A DNA stretch of 64,000 bases from Bradyrhizobium sp. WD16 (lineage in GTDB: Bacteria > Pseudomonadota > Alphaproteobacteria > Rhizobiales > Xanthobacteraceae): NCBI RefSeq assembly GCF_024181725.1, contig NZ_CP028908.1, forward strand, positions 2,542,001-2,606,000, written 5' to 3'. Both the position numbers and the translations under genes were made by a program. Every line of letters starts with the position of its first letter. The first letter of the stretch is position 1. The notes under the pieces are model-generated. The model searched no databases, was not told the DNA's origin, and saw only the letters and a list, made by a program, of their open reading frames with translations. Of the stretch, positions 7,422 through 24,384 are shown piece after piece.

Positions 7422-8003
7422 ATGCTGAGACGTATCTACGACTGGTGCATCATTGCCGCCGACCGGCCCTACGCGCTCTGGATCATCGCCGCGGTGTCCT
7501 TCGCCGAGAGTTCGTTCTTTCCGGTGCCCCCGGACGTGATGCTGATTCCGATGTCGCTGGCGCGGCCGCAACGGGCCTGGCTCTATGCGGTCATCTGCAC
7601 CGTCGCCTCGGTCGCCGGCGGCCTGCTCGGCTATGCGATCGGTGCCGTTCTTTACGATTCCATCGGGCAGTGGTTGATCCAGCTGTATGGCTATGGCGAC
7701 AAGGTCGAGGCCTTCCGGACCGCCTATGCCGAATACGGCGCCTGGATCATCCTGCTGAAGGGGCTGACCCCGATCCCCTACAAGATCGTCACCATCACCT
7801 CGGGCTTTGCCGGCTACAATCTGCCGCTGTTCGTCCTGTTTTCGGTGATCGCGCGCGGCGGCCGGTTCTTCATCGTCGCCATCCTGCTCAATCGCTACGG
7901 CAGCTGGATCAGGTCGCAGATCGAGGCGCGTCTCGGGATGTGGGTGGCGATCGGCGCTGCGGTGCTGGTCGCGGGCTTCATCATCGCCGTTCGTTTGTTC
8001 TGA
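7422..8003 (+). CDS. DedA/YqaA-like inner-membrane protein (VTT domain)
   Basis: The 193 aa polytopic protein has the SNARE-associated/VTT family hallmarks: FAESSFFPVPPDVML near 24-38, GGLLGYAIG near 65-73, and KGLTPIPYKIVTITSGFAGY around 115-134. The family contributes to membrane homeostasis or lipid scrambling, and the specific role of this member is unknown. The ATG at 7422 gives the conserved YqaA N-terminus. The frame is open upstream to 7245, but that part overlaps hisE and looks non-native. Confidence 0.82.
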   Translation: MLRRIYDWCIIAADRPYALWIIAAVSFAESSFFPVPPDVMLIPMSLARPQRAWLYAVICTVASVAGGLLGYAIGAVLYDSIGQWLIQLYGYGDKVEAFRTAYAEYGAWIILLKGLTPIPYKIVTITSGFAGYNLPLFVLFSVIARGGRFFIVAILLNRYGSWIRSQIEARLGMWVAIGAAVLVAGFIIAVRLF

Positions 8004-8122
8004 GGGTTTTCCGTCCGCGCCACCCGGCACGGAATGCGCCATTGCGGTGACCGGGCAAAAGCGGATATCCCTTAATTTCACCCGGCAAGGGCCTTTGCCG
8101 CCTGTGAGGTCATGATCGAACC

Positions 8123-8761
8123 ATGTCGCGCCCGGCCATGACGGATCTGCGCCAGAGCGGGATCTCCGGGGATGTTCCCTCCGCCGGGGCATTGTTGCCC
8201 GCCGTGATTGCGGTCCTGACCCTTGTCGTGACCAATTTCGCAGCGCTGCCGGCCGCCGCTCAGCAGGCCGTCCCGCCCTCCGAACCACCCCCAGTACTCC
8301 GGGCCTTGCCGGATTCCGGTGCCTCGGCCGATCAGACCCGCCCTGATCAAAGTCGCTCCGATCAAGTTGATCCGATGGCGCCGAACCGGCCGGGCTTCAT
8401 CGACGAGGTTGGCAAATGGCTTCACGCGCCGTCGTGGGGACTGCCCTCGGTCAAATCGCCGCAGCAGACGCTCGAGGAATGGAATAAGAGCACCCGCGAG
8501 GCGACCGACAATCTGACGCGAATGTCGCGGCAGCAGGTGGTGAGCGGCCGCGTCAAATGTCCGGTCGCGATCAACGGTGCGCCGGACTGCAAGATCGCGG
8601 CGACGAAGATGTGCACTGACAAGGGCTTCAAGGACGGGCAGAGCCTCGATTCCGATTCCGCCGAAAACTGCCCGGCGGCTGTGCTGCTGTCAGGCGACAA
8701 GCCCAAGCAGCGGCAGGCCTGTATTCTGGAAAATTTCGTCATACGGGCGCTCTGTCAATAA
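8123..8761 (+). CDS. Uncharacterised exported protein
   Basis: The 212 aa product starts with a hydrophobic export signal (about 20-46, ending near AAAQQA). A Pro/Ser/Asp-rich linker follows, then a globular C-terminal part. Cys residues (VKCPVAI, DCKI, KMCTDKG, ENCPAAV, QACILE and the penultimate Cys) suggest periplasmic disulfides. No known enzymatic motif is visible. The ATG at 8138 is an equally possible start. Confidence 0.65.
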   Translation: MSRPAMTDLRQSGISGDVPSAGALLPAVIAVLTLVVTNFAALPAAAQQAVPPSEPPPVLRALPDSGASADQTRPDQSRSDQVDPMAPNRPGFIDEVGKWLHAPSWGLPSVKSPQQTLEEWNKSTREATDNLTRMSRQQVVSGRVKCPVAINGAPDCKIAATKMCTDKGFKDGQSLDSDSAENCPAAVLLSGDKPKQRQACILENFVIRALCQ

Positions 8762-8930
8762 GGCGCGCTTCGAGCGCCTTCCCCCGGATTGCTTTTCCTG
8801 TCCTCCTTCTGGCATCGTGCCGCACCACGAGTAGGCCGCCGGCGCGGCATGGCAGCGCATCGGCGCAAGGTCGCGAATTTGGCGCCTGCTACGCTGCGAT
8901 CGGAACTTCAGGGGAAGGAATTTCTGCACA

Positions 8931-9899
8931 ATGACCATGCCCGCGCTCTTCAAGGGTCGTCTGACGCTGCCGGTGATCGGATCGCCGCTTTTCATCATCT
9001 CCAATCCGGATCTGGTCATCGCCCAGTGCAAGGCCGGCGTGGTCGGCTCGTTTCCGGCGTTGAACGCCCGTCCGGCGGCGCTGCTCGACGAGTGGCTGGC
9101 GCGCATCATCGAGGAACTCGCCGCGTACGACCGCGCGCATCCCGAGCGGCCGTCGGCGCCTTTCGCGGTCAACCAGATCGTCCACAAGTCGAACAACCGG
9201 CTCGATGAGGACATGGCGCTCTGCGAGAAATACAAAGTGCCCATGATCATCACCTCGCTCGGCGCGCGCGAGGAGCTCAACCAGGCCGTGCATGGCTGGG
9301 GCGGCATTACCTTCCACGACGTGATCAACCAGACCTTCGCCCACAAGGCGGTCGAGAAGGGGGCCGACGGTCTGGTGCTGGTTGCCGCGGGCGCCGGCGG
9401 TCATGCCGGGCAGCTTTCGCCCTTCGCCTTCGTGGCCGAGACCCGGAAGTGGTTCAACGGCCCGCTCGCGCTGTCGGGAGCGATCGGCAACGGTCGCGCC
9501 ATCCGCGCCGCCCGGGTCCTCGGTGCCGACTTCGCCTACATTGGTTCTGCCTTCATCGCGACCAGAGAGGCCAATGCGGTCGATGACTACAAGCAGATGA
9601 TCACCTCCTCGAGCGCCTCCGACATCATCTATTCCAATCTCTTCACCGGCGTGCACGGCAATTACCTCAAGCCCTCCATCGTCGCCGCCGGCCTCGATCC
9701 CGACAACCTGCCGGTGTCCGATCCTTCCGCGATGAATTTCGGCACCGATGCCAGCGGCGAGCGCGCCAAGCCCAAGGCCTGGAAGGAGATCTGGGGCAGC
9801 GGCCAGGGCATCGGCAGCATCGATGACGTGGTGCCCGCGGCCGAGCTGATCGCCCGCTTCAGGAAGGAATATGCCGAGGCGATCGACCCGCCGTTGTGA
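8931..9899 (+). CDS. Nitronate monooxygenase family protein (2-nitropropane dioxygenase-like)
   Basis: FMN-dependent TIM-barrel enzyme of 322 aa that oxidises alkyl nitronates. Visible features are the N-terminal PVIGSPLFIISNPDLV, the AGAGGHAG phosphate-binding turn (about 152-160), and LSGAIGNGRAIRAARVLGADFAYIGSAF in the second phosphate-binding region. The family also includes enoyl reductase-like proteins, so the substrate is uncertain. The TGA stop lies 2 bases before the CTAG of a repeat cluster. Confidence 0.82.
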   Translation: MTMPALFKGRLTLPVIGSPLFIISNPDLVIAQCKAGVVGSFPALNARPAALLDEWLARIIEELAAYDRAHPERPSAPFAVNQIVHKSNNRLDEDMALCEKYKVPMIITSLGAREELNQAVHGWGGITFHDVINQTFAHKAVEKGADGLVLVAAGAGGHAGQLSPFAFVAETRKWFNGPLALSGAIGNGRAIRAARVLGADFAYIGSAFIATREANAVDDYKQMITSSSASDIIYSNLFTGVHGNYLKPSIVAAGLDPDNLPVSDPSAMNFGTDASGERAKPKAWKEIWGSGQGIGSIDDVVPAAELIARFRKEYAEAIDPPL

Positions 9900-14432: not shown

Positions 14433-15506
14433 ATGAAACCGCATCGTTCTCCGTTCGCCAAAACCGCTCTGTTGCTGCTCGTTGCCGGTGCGGCGACCGT
14501 GGCGCAGCCGGCGGCGTATGGCTGCACGCGGCTGGTCTATCTCGGTGCTCAGAACAACGTCGTCACCGCGCGGTCGATGGACTGGAATAGCGACATCGCC
14601 ACCAATCTGTGGATCTTTCCGCGCGGCATGTCGCGGAACGGCGAGGCCGGCGCCAATTCGATCCGCTGGACCTCGAAATACGGCAGCGTGATCGCGTCGG
14701 CTTACGACATCTCGACGTCGGATGGCATGAACGAGGCCGGCCTGGTCGCCAATATCCTGTGGCTGACGGAATCGGAATATCCGAAATTCGACGGCTCGAA
14801 GCCGGGCCTGTCGATCGCCGCCTGGGCGCAATATGTCCTCGACAACTTCGCCACCGTCGACGAGGCGGTCGCGGCGCTGGCGCGCGAGCCCTTCACCGTC
14901 GTCACCGCCAAGGTGCCCGGTCAGCAGCTGCTCGCGACGCTGCATCTGTCGCTCTCGGACGCCAGCGGCGACAGCGCCATCATCGAGTATATCGGCGGCA
15001 AGCAGATCATCCATCACGACCGCAAGTACCAGGTGATGACCAATTCGCCGACCTTCGACCAGCAGCTCGCGCTCGATGCCTATTGGCAGGAGATCGGCGG
15101 CACGGTGATGCTGCCGGGCACCAACCGCGCCGCGGATCGCTTCGCGCGGGCCTCCTTCTACGTCAACGCCATCCCCAAGGCGGAAGATCCCGACCGCGCG
15201 CTGGCGAGCGTGTTCGGCGTCATCCGCAACGTCTCGGTGCCCTACGGCATCTCGACGCCGGACCAGCCCAATATCTCGTCGACCCGCTGGCGCAGCGTCG
15301 TCGACCACAAGCGCAAGCTCTATTTCTTCGAATCGGCGCTGACGCCGAACACCTTCTGGGTCGATCTGGCGGCGATCGATTTCTCCGCCGAGAAGGGCAA
15401 GGTGAAAAAGCTCGATCTCGGTCCCGATCAGAGCCGGACCTATTCCGGCGACACCACCGGGGACTTCCGCGAGGCGGCGCCATTCAAATTCGAGGGGCTG
15501 CCGTAG
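14433..15506 (+). CDS. Periplasmic choloylglycine-hydrolase family amidase (linear amide C-N hydrolase)
   Basis: An Ntn-hydrolase of 357 aa. A signal peptide runs to about residue 30. The next residue is Cys31 (YGCTRLVY), the expected N-terminal nucleophile after processing. Further family features are ARSMDWNSD (conserved Arg and Asp), DGMNEAGLVANILWL, VMTNSPTFDQQ and a late Arg in SSTRWRSVVD. Family members cleave bile salts, penicillin V or acyl-homoserine lactones. The periplasmic location is inferred from the signal peptide, and the substrate is not readable. An FNR/FixK-like box lies upstream. Confidence 0.85.
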   Translation: MKPHRSPFAKTALLLLVAGAATVAQPAAYGCTRLVYLGAQNNVVTARSMDWNSDIATNLWIFPRGMSRNGEAGANSIRWTSKYGSVIASAYDISTSDGMNEAGLVANILWLTESEYPKFDGSKPGLSIAAWAQYVLDNFATVDEAVAALAREPFTVVTAKVPGQQLLATLHLSLSDASGDSAIIEYIGGKQIIHHDRKYQVMTNSPTFDQQLALDAYWQEIGGTVMLPGTNRAADRFARASFYVNAIPKAEDPDRALASVFGVIRNVSVPYGISTPDQPNISSTRWRSVVDHKRKLYFFESALTPNTFWVDLAAIDFSAEKGKVKKLDLGPDQSRTYSGDTTGDFREAAPFKFEGLP

Positions 15507-15626: not shown

Positions 15627-16061
15627 ATGGCGCGCGCGAGGAAATGGCTGCAAGGCGTCTCGGACTGGCTTGAGGCAGGAGCTCACCGGGCCACCATCGT
15701 GAATGTGGTCATGCTGTCGGCCATTCTCGCGATCGCCGACAGCGCAGCCCTCTACATGATGGTCGGCGGTGGGATCGTCCTGCTCGCGGGAGGCCGCTTT
15801 TTCCTGGGTGCGGTGGGCCGAACCTATGCCTGCCGCCGTGCGATGAATCCCTATCAGCTCGCGCTCATCTGGATTCCGGGAGGGCTTGCGGTCTGTCTTG
15901 CCGTCGCCGCGCTCGGCCTCGTCACGGCCGATTCGGCGCCCCGGCTCGCCTATGGCCTCGGTGCGCTTCTGTTCGCCGTCGAGAATGCGATGCTGACCCT
16001 GGCGGGGGCGGAACTGTCCGCCGAGCCCGCCCCCGGCACCGCCGTCGGGGAGGCCGCCTGA
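15627..16061 (+). CDS. Small membrane protein, first gene of bd-like operon
   Basis: The 144 aa product has three or four hydrophobic segments (about 23-40, 42-58, 78-98, 108-125) and a short polar C-terminus. No ligand motif is recognisable. The ATG at 15627 follows a strong GGGAGGGG site. Its stop overlaps the ATG of the next gene (TGATG), so it is translationally coupled to the heme-c-containing subunit and is probably an accessory or structural subunit. The function is inferred from context only. Confidence 0.72.
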   Translation: MARARKWLQGVSDWLEAGAHRATIVNVVMLSAILAIADSAALYMMVGGGIVLLAGGRFFLGAVGRTYACRRAMNPYQLALIWIPGGLAVCLAVAALGLVTADSAPRLAYGLGALLFAVENAMLTLAGAELSAEPAPGTAVGEAA

Positions 16062-17551
16062 TGGATTTCCCGGTCTTCCATCTCGATCTCGTCGGCAATC
16101 GCTGGCTGGTTGCGACGATCGCGATCCTGCATGTCCTCGTCAATCACGGCCTCGCCGTCGGCATGATGCCGCTCGTCGCGGCCATGGAATGGTACGGGCA
16201 CAAGAAGCACGACCCGCGCTGGGACGCCCTGGCCTACCGGATCCTGTTCTTCTGCTTCCTCATCACGACGACCGTCGGGGCGCTGACCGGCGTCGGCATC
16301 TGGCTGTCGGTCTCGCTGGTCAATCCCTATTCGATCGCCAGCCTCATCCGGGTCTTCTTCTGGGCGTGGTTCACCGAATGGCTCGTCTTCATCACCGAAG
16401 TCTGCCTGATCCTCGCCTATACACTGACCTGGAAGAAGTGGAGCGCCGGCGGCGCGCGGACGAAGGTGAGGCATATCCGACTCGGCTTCGCGCTGGCGCT
16501 CTTCTCCTGGGTGACGATGGCGATCATCGTCGCGATCCTCGGCTTCATGATGGATCCCGGAAACTGGCTGACCGATCATGCCTTCTGGACCGGAGTGCTC
16601 AACCCCCTTTACCTGCCCCAGCTCGCCTTCCGCACGCCACTCGCCGCGGCCATGGCCGGTGTCGTCGCCATGTTCCTCATCCTCTTCTTTACGAGGAAGA
16701 CGGATGGCTTCCGGCACGAAGCGCTTCGTGCGGTGGGGCTGTGGACCCTCGCCTTCGCGCCGTTCGTGCTGGTCGCGGGCTGGTGGTACTATACGTCCGT
16801 GCCGGTCGTGATGCTCAACAATCTCGGCGTCTCCCTGGCGACGCTCCAGTTCAGCGACTGGCAGGATACCTTTCTCAAGGCCGCCGTGGTCACGGTCGTG
16901 ACGATCCTGATCGTCGTGCAGTTCGCGATTGCGCGACCGAACCTGCTTCCCCGTATCGCCCTCGTCGTCCCCTTCGCCGCCATCCTGTGGATGACCGGCC
17001 ATTTCGAGCGGGTGCGCGAATTCATCCGTAAACCCTACGTCATCGGCAGGTACATGTATGCCAACGGCATCCGCGTGAGTGATTACGCGCTGCTGCAGCG
17101 GGACGGCATTCTCGCTTACGCGGCCTATTCGAACCCGCTGACCGAGGCGGAGACGGTCGGGCTGCCGGAGGGACTGTCGAACGAGGAGCGGGCGGCGCGT
17201 CTCGATCGCATTCAAAAGGGCAAGGATGTCTTCATGGACGCCTGCTCGCGCTGCCACACCGGGCATGGCGTCAACAGCATCACCAGCCACCTGCAGCGGA
17301 TGTTCGGCGATCAGCCCTGGACCCCTGAACTGACGGCCGGCTACATCGAGGGAATGCACGATGCGCAGCCCTACATGCCGCCGTTCCCCGGCAACAAGAA
17401 CGAGTTGCAATTGCTCGGCGCCTATCTCGAGCACCTCCAGCACAACAAGGCGCCGGTCCCGGGCGCGCAGACCGCGGGCATCCTCGTCAATGGCGATGCC
17501 GCGCCACGCGTCGCCGCCTCCGGCAACCGGGAAGAGGCCGCCGCGCGATGA
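16061..17551 (+). CDS. Cytochrome bd-superfamily (CydA-like) subunit with C-terminal cytochrome c domain
   Basis: The 496 aa product has an N-terminal half of about eight transmembrane helices, with a CydA-like opening helix containing His24 and His29, TTTVGALTGVGIW (about 69-81), and a helix with two acidic residues (E106, E113, in TEWLVFITE). After about residue 375 a soluble cytochrome c domain follows. It has a CSRCH heme-binding site (C395, C398, H399) and a likely distal Met439 in YMPPFPG. The bd superfamily transfers quinol electrons to oxygen, and some branches carry a heme-c tail. Whether this one is an oxidase or another quinol-dependent complex cannot be decided from sequence alone. 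Its stop overlaps the next start (ATGA). Confidence 0.7.
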   Translation: MDFPVFHLDLVGNRWLVATIAILHVLVNHGLAVGMMPLVAAMEWYGHKKHDPRWDALAYRILFFCFLITTTVGALTGVGIWLSVSLVNPYSIASLIRVFFWAWFTEWLVFITEVCLILAYTLTWKKWSAGGARTKVRHIRLGFALALFSWVTMAIIVAILGFMMDPGNWLTDHAFWTGVLNPLYLPQLAFRTPLAAAMAGVVAMFLILFFTRKTDGFRHEALRAVGLWTLAFAPFVLVAGWWYYTSVPVVMLNNLGVSLATLQFSDWQDTFLKAAVVTVVTILIVVQFAIARPNLLPRIALVVPFAAILWMTGHFERVREFIRKPYVIGRYMYANGIRVSDYALLQRDGILAYAAYSNPLTEAETVGLPEGLSNEERAARLDRIQKGKDVFMDACSRCHTGHGVNSITSHLQRMFGDQPWTPELTAGYIEGMHDAQPYMPPFPGNKNELQLLGAYLEHLQHNKAPVPGAQTAGILVNGDAAPRVAASGNREEAAAR

Positions 17552-18609
17552 ACCAGATCCCCGTTCCCCGAGACATTCCGCTTCCCCTGCCGGCGCCGGA
17601 ACCGGTGCTGGTCGCCGTGCTGGTCGTCTTCTTCCTCATGCACATCGTCTTCGTGAATTTCATGGTCGGCGGCGCCCTGCTGACGCTCTATTACGAACTG
17701 CGCGGCCTCAAGGAGAAACGCAACGACGATCTCGCCTATGAGATCGCGTCGACGATCACGGCCAATAAATCCATTGCCGTCGTCCTCGGCATCGGCCCGC
17801 TGCTCGCGATCAATACCATCTACACGGTCTACTTCTACACGGCGAATGCGCTGACCGGGGTCTTCTGGATCAGCATCATTCCGCTGGTCGTGCTCGCCTT
17901 CGTGCTGACTTACATCCACAAATATCTCTGGCACCGGATGGCGCGGGCGAAGGGGCTCCACATCGGCATCGCCGTCGTCGTCTGTCTGCTCTTTCTGTTC
18001 ATCCCGCTGATCTTCCTGGCCAACATCAACCTGATGCTGTTCCCGGAGGCGTGGGGAACGGTGAGGGGCTTCTTCGCCGCGCTTGCGCTCCCGAACGTCT
18101 TCCCGCGCTACATCCACTTCGTTCTGGCCTGCCCGGCGATGACCGGCCTGTTCCTGGTCTGGCTGTTCCGCAGGCGGAGCGCGGAAGAGATCGCCGCGAC
18201 CGGGTTCGAGCGTGCCGAACTGATCCGGAAGGGTTACCGCTGGGCGCTGTGGCCGACCATGGCCCAGTTCGTCGTCGGCCCGGCGGCCGTGCTCACGCTG
18301 CCGCACACGCAGGTGGCCATTCATTCCGTCTGGGCGGTCTTCGCCGCGGCAACGCTGATTTCGCTCTGGATGGTGCATCTGATGTTCGTCGAGACGCGGC
18401 GGCCCGCGGCAACCATCGGCAGGAGCTTCGCCCCGATCTGCGCGCTGATGCTCGTCGTCGTCGCGCTGATGGGGGTCGGGCGGCATCTCTATCGCGAAGC
18501 TGCCGTGGCTCCGCATCGTGAGCTGGTTCGCGCCAAGACCCAGGACTACATGCGGAAGGTCGACGAAGCCAACCGCGAAGCGGCGGCCGGAGGAGGCAAG
18601 GCGCGATGA
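17548..18609 (+). CDS. CydA'-like integral membrane partner subunit
   Basis: The 353 aa product has about eight predicted transmembrane helices. The N-terminus (FFLMHIVFVNFMVGGALL, His32, then IASTITANKSIAVVLGIGPLLAINTIY) parallels the first helices of the upstream subunit, so the two look like distant paralogues. That resembles CydA/CydA' pairs of the bd superfamily. There is no CXXCH motif. It overlaps the preceding gene (ATGA) and is overlapped by the small ORF that follows (ATGA), so all four genes are translationally coupled. The paralogy is my reading of motif layout and needs a profile or structure comparison. Confidence 0.62.
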   Translation: MNQIPVPRDIPLPLPAPEPVLVAVLVVFFLMHIVFVNFMVGGALLTLYYELRGLKEKRNDDLAYEIASTITANKSIAVVLGIGPLLAINTIYTVYFYTANALTGVFWISIIPLVVLAFVLTYIHKYLWHRMARAKGLHIGIAVVVCLLFLFIPLIFLANINLMLFPEAWGTVRGFFAALALPNVFPRYIHFVLACPAMTGLFLVWLFRRRSAEEIAATGFERAELIRKGYRWALWPTMAQFVVGPAAVLTLPHTQVAIHSVWAVFAAATLISLWMVHLMFVETRRPAATIGRSFAPICALMLVVVALMGVGRHLYREAAVAPHRELVRAKTQDYMRKVDEANREAAAGGGKAR

Positions 18610-18743
18610 TCCCCGGATCGTTGGACACCGGCGAGCCTCTGGACATCGCGGGCCTCTTTCGTCATTTCAGGCTTCGGATGCGGCGCCATCTATGGTCCCG
18701 GATCGCCGTTCTGGTGTTCGGCGGGAGGGCGCGGCATCGCTAG
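18606..18743 (+). CDS. Small ORF at the end of the bd-like operon
   Basis: The 45 aa frame starts with an ATGA overlap on the preceding stop, exactly like the upstream junctions. It ends at a TAG (18741-18743) formed at the edge of repeat module B. The peptide is basic (FRLRMRRHLW, then RIAVLVFGGRARHR) with a short hydrophobic stretch. Canonical bd oxidases have tiny extra subunits such as CydX, so a small subunit is possible. Truncation of a longer gene by the repeat is also possible. Confidence 0.4.
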   Translation: MIPGSLDTGEPLDIAGLFRHFRLRMRRHLWSRIAVLVFGGRARHR

Positions 18744-18814
18744 TGTCCCGTCTCAGAATTACCGCTTCGTTTGCCTCGCGCTCGCACGGTAATTCGGAGA
18801 CATAGGGACACTAG
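18740..18814. repeat. Solitary palindromic module B
   Basis: Module B is bounded by CTAG at both ends, with arms TCTCAGAATTACCG and CGGTAATTCGGAGA. It lies between the bd-like operon and the RegB-like gene. It is the only B copy without the neighbouring spacer and C module. Confidence 0.88.
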
Positions 18815-18869
18815 ACAGGCCGCCTCGCCGCGCCGTGCGATGCGGGGAGGAAGGAAGAAGCGGGGACGG

Positions 18870-20144
18870 GTGCGAGATACGACCAACAAGACCAATCTCC
18901 GGCTGCTCATTCAGTTGCGCTGGCTGGCGGTGGGAGGCCAGGTGGCGACGATCCTGTTCGTCCACTATCGGCTCGGCATCGACCTGCCGCTGGCGCAGAT
19001 GGTTGCCGTCGTCGCCTTCCTCGTCGGGCTGAACGCCGTCAGTCTTCTGCGTCATCGCAAGCAGGATGCCGTCACCAATTCGGAGCTCTTCCTCGAGCTG
19101 CTGCTCGATGTCGCGGCTCTCACCGTCCAGTTCTATCTCAGCGGCGGAGCGTCGAACCCGTTCATTTCCCTCTACCTCCTCCAGGTCATTCTCGGCGCGG
19201 TGCTTCTCGACGTCTGGTCGGCCTGGGCCCTCGTCATGATCACGAGCGGCTGCTTCGTCTGGTTGACGACGAGCTACCGCGAGATCGCCATTCCGCATGC
19301 GCATCGAGGCGACCTGTTCAACCTGCATATCCAGGGAATGCTGATCTGTTTCGTGCTGGCCGCGGGTCTGCTGGTGTTCTTCGTCACGCGAATCCAGCGC
19401 AATCTGCGGGCCCGTGACGCGCATCTGGCGGAGCTGCGCCAGCAGGCGGCCGAGGAGGATCACATCGTTCGCATGGGGTTGCTGGCGTCCGGCGCCGCCC
19501 ACGAGCTCGGCACGCCGCTTGCGACCCTCTCGGTCATCGTCAACGACTGGCAGCGGATGCCGTCCTTCACGGCCGATCCGGAAATCGCCCAGGACATGGC
19601 GGAGCTGCAGAGCCAGCTGGAGCGATGCAAGGCGATCGTCTCCGGCATTCTGATGTCGTCGGGCGAGGCGCGGGGCGAAGGCACGGTCAGGACGAGCGTC
19701 AGGACGTTTCTCGACGAACTGGTCGGCGATTGGCGCGCCAGCCGCTCGCCGTCGGGATTGGACTACAAGAACCTGTTCGCTCCCGACGAGACGATCGTCT
19801 CGGACGCGGCCCTGAAGCAGGTCATCGTCAACGTTTTCGACAACGCTCTGGAGGCGTCGCCGAACTGGGTTGGAATCGCCGTCGGTCGGCAGGTCGACAA
19901 GCTCGTCATCGTCGTCAGCGATACCGGCCCCGGCTTCACGGAGGACATGCTCGCCGGGTTCGGCCGGCCCTATCGTTCGAGCAAGGGGCGTCCCGGCGGC
20001 GGCCTCGGCCTCTTTCTCGTCGTCAACGTCGTCCGCAAGCTCGGGGGGACGGTCAGGGCCGACAACGGCGCCGCCGGCGGCGCCTGGGTGACGCTGACCC
20101 TGCCGCTTGCGGCGTTGTCGCTCGGGGGAGACCATGAAGGTTAG
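18870..20144 (+). CDS. regB: RegB/PrrB-like redox sensor histidine kinase
   Basis: Membrane histidine kinase of 424 aa. It has six transmembrane helices (about 10-165) and a quinone-site motif GGASNPF between helices 3 and 4. A short linker with an EEDHIVRMGLLASG segment leads to the H-box AAHELGTPLATLS. A Cys in QLERCKAI corresponds to the redox-active cysteine of RegB. ATPase motifs follow: NVFDNALEAS (N box), DTGPGF, and GGGLGLFLV. The GTG at 18870 is preferred: the upstream in-frame ATG at 18840 adds only a basic segment. RegB usually controls respiration and photosynthesis genes. Its position after the bd-like operon suggests a dedicated copy. Confidence 0.85.
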   Translation: MRDTTNKTNLRLLIQLRWLAVGGQVATILFVHYRLGIDLPLAQMVAVVAFLVGLNAVSLLRHRKQDAVTNSELFLELLLDVAALTVQFYLSGGASNPFISLYLLQVILGAVLLDVWSAWALVMITSGCFVWLTTSYREIAIPHAHRGDLFNLHIQGMLICFVLAAGLLVFFVTRIQRNLRARDAHLAELRQQAAEEDHIVRMGLLASGAAHELGTPLATLSVIVNDWQRMPSFTADPEIAQDMAELQSQLERCKAIVSGILMSSGEARGEGTVRTSVRTFLDELVGDWRASRSPSGLDYKNLFAPDETIVSDAALKQVIVNVFDNALEASPNWVGIAVGRQVDKLVIVVSDTGPGFTEDMLAGFGRPYRSSKGRPGGGLGLFLVVNVVRKLGGTVRADNGAAGGAWVTLTLPLAALSLGGDHEG

Positions 20145-20667
20145 GAGGTCGATCCTGATCGTCGAGGATGACGCATCCTTCGCGCGCGCGCTGCGCCGCT
20201 CGTTCGAGCGTCGGAATTATGAGGTCCATCTCTGCGACGGTCTTGATGGCGTCAGGACCCTGCTAAAGACCGTGTCGCCGGAATATGCCGTGGTCGATCT
20301 GAAGCTCGCAACCGGCTCCGGGCTTGAATGCGTCAAGACGCTCCACGGCCACGACCGCCGGACGAGGATCGTGGTTCTCACCGGCTTCGCCAGCATCGCC
20401 ACCGCGGTGGAGGCGATCAAGCTGGGGGCCTGTCACTACCTTCCGAAGCCCTCCAACACCGACGATATCGAGGCGGCCTTCGGCAAGGCGGAAGGCGATG
20501 CGTCGGTCCCGGTGACCGCCCGCGCCACCTCGATCAAGAATCTCGAATGGGAGCGGATTCACGAAACGCTGGTGGAGACGCAGTTCAACATCTCCGAGAC
20601 CGCGCGGCGTCTCGGCATGCACCGCCGAACGCTCGCCCGCAAGCTCGAGAAGCGGCGGGTGACGTGA
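20134..20667 (+). CDS. regA: RegA/PrrA/ActR-like response regulator
   Basis: The 177 aa product has a receiver domain with ILIVEDD, the phosphoacceptor Asp in YAVVDLKLA, the T in VVLTGFASIATAVEA and the K in YLPKPSN. A Fis-type helix-turn-helix follows at the C-terminus (FNISETARRLGMHRRTLARKLEKR), very close to the RegA family signature. The gene overlaps the 3' end of the kinase gene by 11 bases, so the two are co-translated. It probably regulates the bd-like operon directly upstream, which is inference from synteny. Confidence 0.88.
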   Translation: MKVRRSILIVEDDASFARALRRSFERRNYEVHLCDGLDGVRTLLKTVSPEYAVVDLKLATGSGLECVKTLHGHDRRTRIVVLTGFASIATAVEAIKLGACHYLPKPSNTDDIEAAFGKAEGDASVPVTARATSIKNLEWERIHETLVETQFNISETARRLGMHRRTLARKLEKRRVT

Positions 20668-21271: not shown

Positions 21272-22795
21272 TCAGCGGCGACTCACCATGAATGAGCGGA
21301 AGTGGACGACATTCGCCGGCGCCGGTTTGCCGTCCTTAATCCAGTGTTTCGCAGCCATCCGGACGTATACCTCGGAATTCATCGAAGCATTGACGAGGCA
21401 GCCGCACCCCATCCAGTCGGGGTTGTTCTCATCGCAATAGAAGGATGCCCAGGCGACCCCGCGCCGCACCAACCGGAGAATGCCCTTTCGAGCATCGGGG
21501 TTACCGACATCGCGCCCATAGAAATTGTACACGTTCTGGCGGCCTTCTGTCAGGATCGTGCTCCCTCGACTGCAGATCGCGCGGAAGCCGTCGTCTTCGT
21601 CTCGCTCGGTGCCCACGTATGGCGAGCCGCCGTGCACGTCGAAGGCCGGATGATCCGGTTGCCGGCCCTCTCCTGGCTTGTTTTGAAAGGCCCCTGGATT
21701 AACATTGATGGCACAGAGTTCCAGCGTCGTTCCCTGGGCCGGTTTGCTGACGTCGAACTCGACTTGCACTTCGAAATCGCCACGCACCGGCCACGCCAAC
21801 ACGAGGCCGGCCCCCGAATAGCTGCCCCCCTGACACACCTCCACGCGAAATCCGTCCAGCGTGCAACTCCATGTCGTGTCTGGGTTCGACCGCGAGTATC
21901 CTGCCACCCAGTGCTGCCTGTCGAGGCAGCCTTCGCGGAGCGAATCGGCAAAAAGCTCCCCCCGCAGTGGCGGGCATACCGCCGTGTTCATTAGATCCGA
22001 GCATCCTATGCCCCACACTGAGGGAAGCGTCTGCAATCTTGCGAGGGTTGCGGAAGTCGTGCGCTGGTCCCGCCCCGGCACCACCACGAGATCGCCTGCC
22101 CCAGGGAACGAGGTATTCCCAACTGGCGCCGAAGGAGCCCCGCGGATTGCGGCCAACGCTTCGTCGTACGAGACCAATACCGGCATCCCCCCTGCTAGGG
22201 CTCGGTCACGGACGTCCGGCAGATTGCCGCCCGACGGACATATGAGGACCGGAGTGGCATGCGGGCAACGGGTACGCACCTCCGCCACCCCTGCCTCGTC
22301 AGTCGCCACCCCAAAATTGGGCGCGAGGTCGAACTGATCCGTCAGCTTGGCCAGCCGATCGAGCGCAGTCTGCCTGGCGTTTCCGGGCGCGATGTCCAGC
22401 CGCGCGATCACGGGCATTACTCCCTCGAGCTGCAACAACACCTCGAAAACAGTTGCCAGCGAGGTTACTGGCTGGCGACCGTGCCGAATCCAGGGGGTGT
22501 CCTGGCCGGCGACCACCGACTCCCCCTGTTCAAACCGGCCCTGAAAGCCGAGCCCCGCGTCCAAGGCCTTGATCTCTTCCAAGCTCAGGTCTCCCAAGGC
22601 TTGGTGCACTCCCATTCGCTGGAGGGCACGCGCTCCGCCGGCTACGAGTTCGCCGTCCTTGGTTATCCCGAGGTCCAAGAGCAGGAGATCGGCCCCCAGC
22701 GTGTAAGCCGCAAGAAACCCATCAAGGATGCCTTCGGGCACGCGGTCTGGCAGGCCGTTGCATGCCACGCGCTTGGGTAGTCTGATCGGCTGCAT
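21272..22795 (-). CDS. GDPD-fold-like protein with C-terminal lectin-like domain (paralogue 2)
   Basis: The 507 aa product (from ATG 22795) is homologous over its length to the gene just upstream. The N-terminal half resembles the glycerophosphodiester phosphodiesterase barrel (PEGILDGFLAAYTLGADLLLLDLGITKDGELV), but the catalytic HRG, ExD and HD positions are not conserved. The C-terminal 200 residues (LEWCRG-type break, then EVQVEFDVSK, FDVHGGSPYVGTERDEDDGFRA, ASMNSEVYVRMAAKHW) look like a concanavalin/jelly-roll sugar-binding fold. There is no signal peptide. The start at 22795 aligns with that of the paralogue and lies 21 bases after its stop. The function is unknown. Confidence 0.65.
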   Translation of the reverse strand: MQPIRLPKRVACNGLPDRVPEGILDGFLAAYTLGADLLLLDLGITKDGELVAGGARALQRMGVHQALGDLSLEEIKALDAGLGFQGRFEQGESVVAGQDTPWIRHGRQPVTSLATVFEVLLQLEGVMPVIARLDIAPGNARQTALDRLAKLTDQFDLAPNFGVATDEAGVAEVRTRCPHATPVLICPSGGNLPDVRDRALAGGMPVLVSYDEALAAIRGAPSAPVGNTSFPGAGDLVVVPGRDQRTTSATLARLQTLPSVWGIGCSDLMNTAVCPPLRGELFADSLREGCLDRQHWVAGYSRSNPDTTWSCTLDGFRVEVCQGGSYSGAGLVLAWPVRGDFEVQVEFDVSKPAQGTTLELCAINVNPGAFQNKPGEGRQPDHPAFDVHGGSPYVGTERDEDDGFRAICSRGSTILTEGRQNVYNFYGRDVGNPDARKGILRLVRRGVAWASFYCDENNPDWMGCGCLVNASMNSEVYVRMAAKHWIKDGKPAPANVVHFRSFMVSRR

Positions 22796-22815
22796 AGGTT
22801 TTGCCCTGCTGTTTG

Positions 22816-24384
22816 TCAGTCGCACCGGCGCCAAGTGGTGGCGCGGAAGTGTTGGTATGTGCTGCGGTTAGCGAACAGAGGATCGCGCTGTTCCGCCTTG
22901 GGGTAATGCTTGGATGCCAGTCTCACATATACCCGCTCATTCATTGAGGCGCATTCGACGAAGCCCACGCTTACCCATTGGGGATTCTGTTCATCCTGGT
23001 AATAGCCCGAGAAGAGATGGCCGCGCCGCTCCAGCATGAACCGGCCCCGCAAGCTGTCACCGTGGCCAACGTCGGGACAGTAAACGTTTCCGTACCACTC
23101 GATCAGCCCGTCGGGGCCGTCGTTATGCATGATTCGGAAGCCATCCCTTTCCTCGCGCTCCATGGACACATAGGGCGCCATCCCGTGTGTGTCGAAAATG
23201 GGGTTCTCCATGTGAGCCCGGGGATTGGGCACGTTACCTTCCTGATGGAAGCGGTCGAAGACAGTGATGTTGGTGACCGCAAGGACCATCATGTTAGCGG
23301 TCTGGGGGTTCTCAAAGGTGAAGTCCACCTGGAGCTGGAACGGATCGGGCACGGAGATCACGGAAACAACGCCCGCGCTGGCGTAGTGGCTTCCCCGCAC
23401 GACGTCTACGAATAGTCCGTTGTTCTGGCGCACTGTCGCTTCGCTCGAGGTCCGGTTGTCGTACACGTTCTGGATGAGGTTCTGCAGGCCGGCCCCGAAG
23501 ATGTTGTAACCGGCGCGCCGGGCGATTAGCGAACTCTGGAGCTCGTGGCCCGACGAAATGCCGGCAATCCACTTCTCGCGATCAATATGGTTTCCGACGA
23601 ACTCGTCAGAAAAGACCTCGCAGCGGCCGCGAAGAGCGTCCGCCAGCGACAGGACGGAGCGCGCCGCCACAGCGCACGGGATCGCGGCGACGTCTTCGGG
23701 CGGGTTATCGCCGCACGCAATTATGACTTCGACTCCGCTACCGGTCGCCTTGACGGCGAGTTCCCGGGCAGCAGGTCCGTCACTCGCAAAGAGGTATCGG
23801 ATAGCGTTGCCGCGGCACCACTCCAACAAATCCGGCGAGAGATTGTCGCCAGTCGCAACGAGTCCCGCCGGTGAACCCTGCTTGGCGAGAAGTCGAGTGG
23901 ACTCCCGGTCACCGCTCACCAGTACGAATCTCGTCTCTCCGAAACGTTCCGCAATGGCTTGTACCTTTGCCACGGCCGTTTTCCAGGATGCGGCATCCGG
24001 CGCCGTCACTTCCACGAACCAGCCGGTCAGCCGACCGAGCCGCCTCCACAGCTCCTCTAGGGTTGCCATCCTAGCTTTGGGAATTACCCCGCCCTTGCGG
24101 TTGGTGGTTCCTGACCATGGGAGATCCCCGCCGGGCTTGAAGTGCGCTCCTACGGAAAGCCCCCGTAGTGTCGCCAGCGGATTCGCGTGCACTGGTCCGG
24201 ATCCAGTCGTCGTGGCGGAGAGGTCTGGGTGACCGAACAGCACCGGCACCCCGTCCTGGCTCATCTGGACCTGGATCCATTGCCAGTCCGCGCCGGCCGT
24301 ATAGGCGGCGACGCAAGCCTCCAGCGTGTGCTCAGGGACATGCGCGGAGTTGCCGCCCATGGCAACGATCGGAATTCTGTTCAT
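22816..24384 (-). CDS. GDPD-fold-like protein with C-terminal lectin-like domain (paralogue 1)
   Basis: The 522 aa product has an N-terminal GDPD-like barrel (VPEHTLEACVAAYTAGADWQWIQVQMSQDGVPVLFGHPDL). The usual HRG reads MGG and the metal-binding ExD reads QVQ, so phosphodiesterase activity looks lost. The C-terminal domain (IFDTHGMAPYVSMEREERDGFRI, LFSGYYQDEQNPQWVSVGF, NERVYVRLASKHY) matches that of the next gene and suggests a ConA-like binding module. It lies 9 bases after the nucleosidase-like gene, so one operon is likely. The protein is cytoplasmic, as no export signal is seen. Confidence 0.65.
   Translation of the reverse strand: MNRIPIVAMGGNSAHVPEHTLEACVAAYTAGADWQWIQVQMSQDGVPVLFGHPDLSATTTGSGPVHANPLATLRGLSVGAHFKPGGDLPWSGTTNRKGGVIPKARMATLEELWRRLGRLTGWFVEVTAPDAASWKTAVAKVQAIAERFGETRFVLVSGDRESTRLLAKQGSPAGLVATGDNLSPDLLEWCRGNAIRYLFASDGPAARELAVKATGSGVEVIIACGDNPPEDVAAIPCAVAARSVLSLADALRGRCEVFSDEFVGNHIDREKWIAGISSGHELQSSLIARRAGYNIFGAGLQNLIQNVYDNRTSSEATVRQNNGLFVDVVRGSHYASAGVVSVISVPDPFQLQVDFTFENPQTANMMVLAVTNITVFDRFHQEGNVPNPRAHMENPIFDTHGMAPYVSMEREERDGFRIMHNDGPDGLIEWYGNVYCPDVGHGDSLRGRFMLERRGHLFSGYYQDEQNPQWVSVGFVECASMNERVYVRLASKHYPKAEQRDPLFANRSTYQHFRATTWRRCD

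Follow-up and report, generated by a model that had tools for sequence, protein, structure and literature searches.

The analysed window is a 64,000-nucleotide stretch of the Bradyrhizobium sp. WD16 genome (contig NZ_CP028908.1, positions 2,542,001 to 2,606,000 of the forward strand). It contains a gene cluster centred on A and B, two genes for paralogous proteins with the predicted fold of CydA from the cytochrome bd superfamily. Four open reading frames (ORFs) were confirmed at 15627-18743, with overlaps of 1, 4 and 4 bases for p1/A, A/B and B/t4, respectively, at the same coordinates and with the same 1-4 base overlaps as in the initial annotation. That annotation ended the cluster at 18743, but the cluster extends to a RegB-like kinase and a RegA-like regulator encoded downstream. 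The features are as follows:

15627..16061, plus strand: p1, 144 amino acids, hydrophobic, without a known family
16061..17551, plus strand: A, 496 amino acids, CydA-like, with a C-terminal cytochrome c domain (CSRCH at residues 395-399)
17548..18609, plus strand: B, 353 amino acids, a second CydA-like paralogue, without heme c
18606..18743, plus strand: t4, 45 amino acids, a probable truncated remnant
18740..18814, plus strand: inverted-repeat (MITE-like) element of about 75 bp, containing the t4 stop
18840..20144, plus strand: RegB/PrrB/ActS-like histidine kinase with GGASNPF; its start is uncertain (18840 or 18870)
20134..20667, plus strand: RegA/PrrA/ActR-like response regulator without the Rhodobacter RegA cysteine

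A scan of a contig collection returned 37 loci with relatives of these genes. The main alphaproteobacterial group comprised 16 loci (L004-L019; L011 was titled Proteobacteria only), 20 further loci carried a full-length match outside the Alphaproteobacteria (L020-L039, the non-alpha loci), and one match was short (L040). A was followed by B in all 38 loci where both could be read, the window included, and the ATGA overlap from B to the small ORF recurred among alphaproteobacterial relatives; the gene arrangement is therefore more than chance. The contig of L024 contained no B, and L040, L043 and L044 were short or weak matches and were excluded as members. The alignment of A (36 sequences) omitted L017 (in two pieces), L019 (with a separate heme c ORF) and L027 (with a long extension), while the structure set omitted L041, L042, the B of L023 and the plasmid copies. 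Neighbour genes were called with a custom script.

Since PF01654 gave no direct match to window A or window B, homology was approached through profiles and predicted folds. In the B family, PF01654 matched five of 38 members, with 1.4e-9 as the best value; window B was not one of these and had no family match below E=0.07. A profile of A matched 5doq_A (Geobacillus CydA) at E=1.6e-11, and hhalign of A against B gave a probability of 99.3% (E=2e-20), which makes the two paralogues. The AlphaFold2 models (pLDDT 80.1 for A and 89.5 for B) showed eight long helices each, and in Foldseek the best nine matches of each model were bd oxidase chains, subunit I by chain and length. Comparison with VIA-align gave Z 28.1 over 308 residues at 3.2 Å for the A model and Z 25.7 over 305 residues at 3.5 Å for the B model; ten bd oxidase entries headed both lists, and chains of alternative complex III (ACIII) came next with Z of about 19 (A) and 17 (B). 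As modelled, A and B share the CydA fold of the cytochrome bd superfamily. The bd-like fold had been proposed initially, and the profile, predicted fold and residue evidence agree on it, with bd subunit I chains ranking top. Kinship of the transmembrane part of A or B with heme-copper oxidases was rejected on the basis of no Pfam or NCBIfam match; the heme c domain of A alone resembled cbb3 subunit III in these databases.

To compare heme ligands, 36 A, 38 B and 3 CydA sequences were aligned together, with E. coli numbering. The E. coli residues H19, E107, E445 and R448 corresponded to H24, E113, E320 and R323 of window A and were conserved in all 36 A sequences. The joint alignment shifts E99 by one residue; in the 5doq alignment, Geobacillus E101 (the E99 homologue) pairs with E106 of A, which is invariant (36/36), and the seven-residue spacing from E106 to E113 equals that from E101 to E108 in the Geobacillus sequence. 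An inserted Leu101 is described for E. coli (PMC6853902). The columns of the quinol-loop residues K252 and E257 were a gap in 36/36 A and 38/38 B. The H186 column was never His in A (Phe190/Arg191 in window A), and M393 had no conserved counterpart there. By these alignments, A retains the ligand set of an O2-reducing di-heme site without the heme b558 set. The identification of heme ligands that had been suggested as a check thus found the four di-heme positions kept in A and the b558 ligands absent. The initial annotation had named the electron acceptor as the missing piece; with the di-heme O2-site ligands kept, the donor is more the question.

In B, the H19 and H186 positions were kept (His32 and His190, 38/38 each), the glutamate ligands (Ala at E107) and the M393 Met were missing, and only H19 remained of the di-heme ligands. 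The distant A proteins on Methylosinus and Thermus plasmids kept H24, E106, E320, R323, CxxCH and Met439.

The heme c tail with CSRCH that had been noted on A was borne out by PF13442 over residues 383-456, with CSRCH at 395-399, and by the conservation of CxxCH. This domain starts about 60 residues past the last long helix, the one that carries E320, and E320 stands at the helix end that is periplasmic in CydA. Met439 is invariant in A and is likely the second axial ligand of heme c. With the plasmid copies excluded from these counts and from the ligand counts of the joint alignment, CxxCH was present in 38/39 A sequences. The exception, L019 (Novosphingobium colocasiae, 8001-9472), carries the heme c part as a separate ORF of 109 amino acids that overlaps the membrane part by 4 bases, which may be a natural gene split or a frameshift or sequence error. 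A further extended form was seen in a planctomycete A (L027:3997-6081, 694 amino acids) with a second CxxCH motif. Since the di-heme ligands are kept, the b558 ligands and the quinol loop are lost and a heme c domain is present, electrons should enter A via heme c.

The B proteins differed in this respect. CxxCH was found in 19/20 complete non-alpha B sequences (the exception is L037; the L023 sequence is truncated by its contig) and in 0/17 of the main alphaproteobacterial clade, the window's own copy included. Three plasmid-borne B proteins, from Agrobacterium, Methylosinus and one of the Thermus plasmids, lack it as well, so phylum alone does not decide whether B has heme c. In the tree, the 15 A sequences from Alphaproteobacteria formed one clade (100/100), and a single loss can therefore explain the missing B heme c there.

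The A-B family has a rare and patchy distribution and includes one mobile copy. Of 40 genomes taken as relatives, only the window's own had the gene set, and five of 398 genomes of the phylum matched, the own genome included; two of the other four matches were strong (E ~1e-88) and two weak. A conjugative plasmid of Agrobacterium tumefaciens carries the mobile copy, which is 83% identical; a small-protein gene shorter than p1 comes first there, followed by A, B, a 58-amino-acid protein, the kinase and the regulator. Named carriers of the family include Xanthobacter tagetidis, Ancylobacter lacus, Chelatococcus asaccharovorans and Kaistia terrae, and the non-alpha loci belong to Planctomycetota, Zixiibacteriota, Bacteroidota, Myxococcota, Bdellovibrionota, Verrucomicrobiota, Bacillota, KSB1 and Sericytochromatia. 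A Methylosinus member is 27-29% identical to window A. Two plasmids of Thermus thermophilus (L057 and L059) bear a distant A-B pair beside genes for a metal ABC transporter substrate-binding protein and a GTP-binding protein. The plasmid records label A and B only as "c-type cytochrome", "cytochrome c" or "hypothetical protein".

The small proteins showed a narrower distribution. No Pfam or NCBIfam match up to E=1 was obtained for p1, whose hydropathy plot has several membrane-like stretches, and the search for a solved relative gave none, its single match standing at E=0.12. Relatives of p1 in blastp were confined to the main alphaproteobacterial clade, beside A in 15/16 loci, and none were found in L016 or the non-alpha loci. 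A peptide of 53-59 amino acids follows B in 8/16 alphaproteobacterial relatives (L004, L007, L009, L010, L014, L015, L017 and L019), and the Agrobacterium plasmid likewise encodes a longer small protein after B. The peptide was shifted or shortened in L008 and L018 and was not found after B in L005, L006, L011, L012, L013 and L016. Its C-terminal stretch was modestly hydrophobic in the three proteins tested (mean 1.0-1.5 over 19 residues; 0.32 in window t4), and a single membrane helix is likely in the long form by this measure. The TAG stop of t4 sits inside the inverted-repeat element, whose end arms are CTAGTGTCCC/GGGACACTAG. For the central 72 bp of the element, the genome search listed 57 matches; 5 are weak readings of listed copies on the opposite strand, which leaves about 52 copies. 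These are spread genome-wide, are 86-100% identical over 72 bp, and several stand in tandem about 162 bp apart. By comparison with the relatives, t4 is probably a remnant of the 53-59-amino-acid protein, and the element may have helped end the gene. The tiny fourth ORF had been counted as a member of the complex, but here it looks broken, with the hydrophobic C-terminal part missing.

The kinase matched NF033792 at E=2.7e-67 with 227 bits, below the curated 350, and the regulator matched NF033791 at E=6.5e-48 with 163 bits, below the curated 250; the main RegB of the genome lies elsewhere (591 bits). All ten proteins scanned were below the curated cut-offs; for the kinase and regulator of the window, these families were the best match. 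A RegB-type kinase lay downstream in 15/16 loci of the main alphaproteobacterial clade, always with GGxxNPF (L016 lacks it, and L011 is cut by the contig end). The plasmid copies from Agrobacterium and Methylosinus have one too, and others lie close to the genes in L022, L024, L027 and L034, those of L022 and L034 being identified by profile only. The pair resembles RegB/RegA (PrrBA, ActSR) in the GGxxNPF motif of the kinase and the Fis-type regulator, and differs in the scores below cut-off and in the lack of a Cys156 equivalent. The Cys156 position was not Cys in nine pattern-found cluster RegA-like sequences (the window, seven loci and one plasmid), and the main RegA of the genome has the equivalent residue. 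Copper and O2 are described to dimerise Rhodobacter RegA via Cys156, and RegB to read the quinone pool (PMC9147068).

Copper-related genes recurred in the neighbourhoods. Among the 132 called neighbour genes of the 16 alphaproteobacterial loci (25 of 96 families listed), PCuAC and MauG-type peroxidases accounted for six genes each. PCuAC was present in 6/16 loci against 0.075 genes expected in 250 kb from a density of 0.30 per Mb (101 genomes of the window's order), a nominal P of ~1e-10, or 3e-7 at four times the density, with independence assumed. By single-sequence phmmer, PCuAC, SCO, CopC-CopD or MbnP was found in 10/16 loci (L004, L005, L007, L010, L012, L013, L014, L016, L018 and L019). 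The profile scan outside the Alphaproteobacteria covered 131 of the 140 called neighbour genes, 4 of which matched SCO. The plasmid of Methylosinus sp. C49 carries A, B, a small c-type cytochrome, a RegB-like kinase and a RegA-like regulator, and next to them on the opposite strand a TauD-type gene followed by mbnF, M, C and B for methanobactin. A local heme-copper oxidase subunit I gene as the explanation for the copper chaperones was rejected, as a search of 38 loci plus the window at E 1e-5 found no COX1-like gene; in the control, each of the three queries recovered its own locus, and the two that are related recovered each other. In Bordetella, the copper-free cydAB is described as needed under copper limitation (PMC12914433).

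The genome encodes bc1, three heme-copper oxidases and two canonical CydA proteins. ActD was not found in it, and ACIII as the donor in this genome was rejected on that ground. Outside the Alphaproteobacteria, A-B adjoined ACIII-like genes in 5/20 loci (L029, L035, L036, L038 and L039), recognised by clustering of NrfD-type and large Fer4 proteins, with ActD in L038 and two further genes. Near the family member in L055, no ORF resembling ACIII was seen by eye. OR-N5 bd-like enzymes are described directly downstream of ACIII in Nitrospirales (PMC12342949), and this shared adjacency makes OR-N5 the likeliest class. A-B has features of the OR-N or CydAA' type, in that the quinol site is missing and the two CydA paralogues are encoded side by side; it is probably an OR-N-type bd enzyme, most likely OR-N5, as compared with OR-N by description.

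Like the OR-N family (OR-N5), A-B is CydA-like, has no quinol site and has ACIII-like neighbours in those five loci, and cytochrome c has been proposed as the OR-N donor (PMC10839748); unlike OR-N5, the main alphaproteobacterial clade lacks heme c in B and has p1 and the RegB/RegA-like pair, and this genome lacks ActD. Canonical cytochrome bd (CydAB/X, qOR) shares the CydA fold, the di-heme positions and, in relatives, a small companion protein, whereas A-B lacks the quinol loop, A lacks the b558 ligands, the partner is a CydA paralogue and heme c is added. The bd-like oxidase of Nitrospira/Nitrospina is described with partial CydA similarity and missing quinol residues, and with 14 predicted helices, three of them replacing the Q-loop (PMC3578206), against eight long helices each in A and B. 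The initial contrast with standard CydAB and likening to CydAA' or heme-c-bearing branches was therefore reasonable, but the RegB/RegA, copper and ACIII neighbours had been missed. OR-N enzymes are already known from phylogeny, and the alphaproteobacterial layout and copper linkage did not appear in the literature searched, with no description among the matches listed (titles and abstract starts, subscription journals mostly outside).

On balance, we slightly favour a reading in which A-B is a bd-type O2 reductase that contains no copper, receives its electrons from cytochrome c and is controlled by RegBA. The predicted fold and the homology, the conserved ligands, the lost quinol loop and b558 ligands, the heme c motif and the gene neighbourhoods are established, and from them we infer complex formation, O2 as the acceptor, a cytochrome c donor, control by RegBA and a copper-sparing role. 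A and B would form a heterodimer in which B, a structural paralogue, takes the place of CydB. In this genome, electrons would travel from bc1 to the heme c of A through a soluble cytochrome c; in some other phyla, ACIII would supply them. They would then pass to the di-heme site of A (His24, Glu106, Glu113 and Glu320), where O2 would be reduced. Failure of the heme-copper oxidases, for instance, would leave the quinone pool reduced, which RegB would detect, with RegA then turning on the copper-free enzyme. In Alphaproteobacteria, its role would be to let cytochrome c oxidation continue when copper is too scarce for the heme-copper oxidases. We put forward tentatively, and at less than even confidence, that heme c replaces b558 as the electron entry and that alphaproteobacteria keep the enzyme as an oxidase that spares copper, under RegB/RegA control and with a link to copper acquisition, the methanobactin locus included.

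Several observations weigh against this proposal. None of 36 A-family sequences matched PF01654, and hhalign against a three-sequence CydA alignment was weak (probability 7% for A and 3% for B), probably due to the tiny size of that alignment. The E113 position is Asp in the Thermus plasmid A, and the B of the Thermus and Methylosinus copies lacks heme c and the H186 equivalent, so that B is not uniform. Two canonical bd oxidases in the genome could already serve without copper. Archaeal CydAA', in work attributed to Murali et al. in 2021, is said to oxidise quinol without a recognisable quinol site. For copper, the PCuAC test was post hoc, on related loci, with a density from one order when most of the six loci belong to other orders; none of the tested copper sets was found by single-sequence phmmer in the window or among the genes of 6/16 alphaproteobacterial loci, some of them on short contigs; and the only PCuAC of the genome lies about 2 Mb from the cluster.

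The copper linkage may be incidental, a serious possibility that we rate somewhat short of even: A-B would be a generic low-O2 alternative oxidase that shares mobile or respiratory islands with copper genes. The window and the six loci without tested copper neighbours fit this, as do the copy on a conjugative plasmid and the fact that RegB/RegA reads mainly redox and O2, but differing copper gene sets recur across genera, and the member close to the methanobactin genes shares just 27-29% identity with window A.

Less probably, A-B is still a quinol oxidase that binds quinol at an unrecognised site in A, B or p1, with heme c relaying electrons or sensing. The archaeal CydAA' mentioned above would be a precedent. 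All characterised bd enzymes were quinol oxidases as of a 2021 review (PMC8509429), and RegB reads the quinone pool (PMC9147068); we nevertheless consider this unlikely, as the quinol-loop residues are absent in all aligned A and B, the b558 ligands are absent in A, and heme c is kept in 38/39 A sequences and as a separate ORF in the remaining one.

Reduction of NO, or non-respiratory detoxification of O2, NO or peroxide, is improbable. Canonical bd enzymes are described to act in NO and O2 defence too (PMC10839748), and the member at L055 lies near an ORF resembling catalase by eye (and a TonB receptor-like ORF), but no NO-related family was among the neighbour families listed (25 of 96; 25 of 159), and the ACIII linkage points to a respiratory chain. 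That A-B senses redox state or relays signals for the neighbouring divergent RegB-like kinase is very improbable. The kinase is closely linked in 15/16 alphaproteobacterial relatives and occurs near the genes in L022, L024, L027 and L034, but no such kinase was seen near the other 16/20 non-alpha members (some on short contigs), and the di-heme ligand set of A is invariant in both groups.

Two further genes or gene pairs of the window were recorded. A choloylglycine hydrolase family gene (14433-15506; PF02275, 1.7e-46) lies directly upstream of the cluster, and at 21272-24384 stand two adjacent minus-strand genes of about 520 amino acids each, with C-terminal parts alike by eye.

If A-B is a cytochrome c-fed O2 reductase, it would be the first bd-family enzyme shown with a non-quinol donor, by the measure of the 2021 review, according to which such an enzyme was still to be obtained (PMC8509429). 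The kept O2-site ligands, the protein's own cytochrome c domain and the named strains make the donor question testable. If the copper link also holds, the family would show how bacteria run a cytochrome c respiratory branch without copper.

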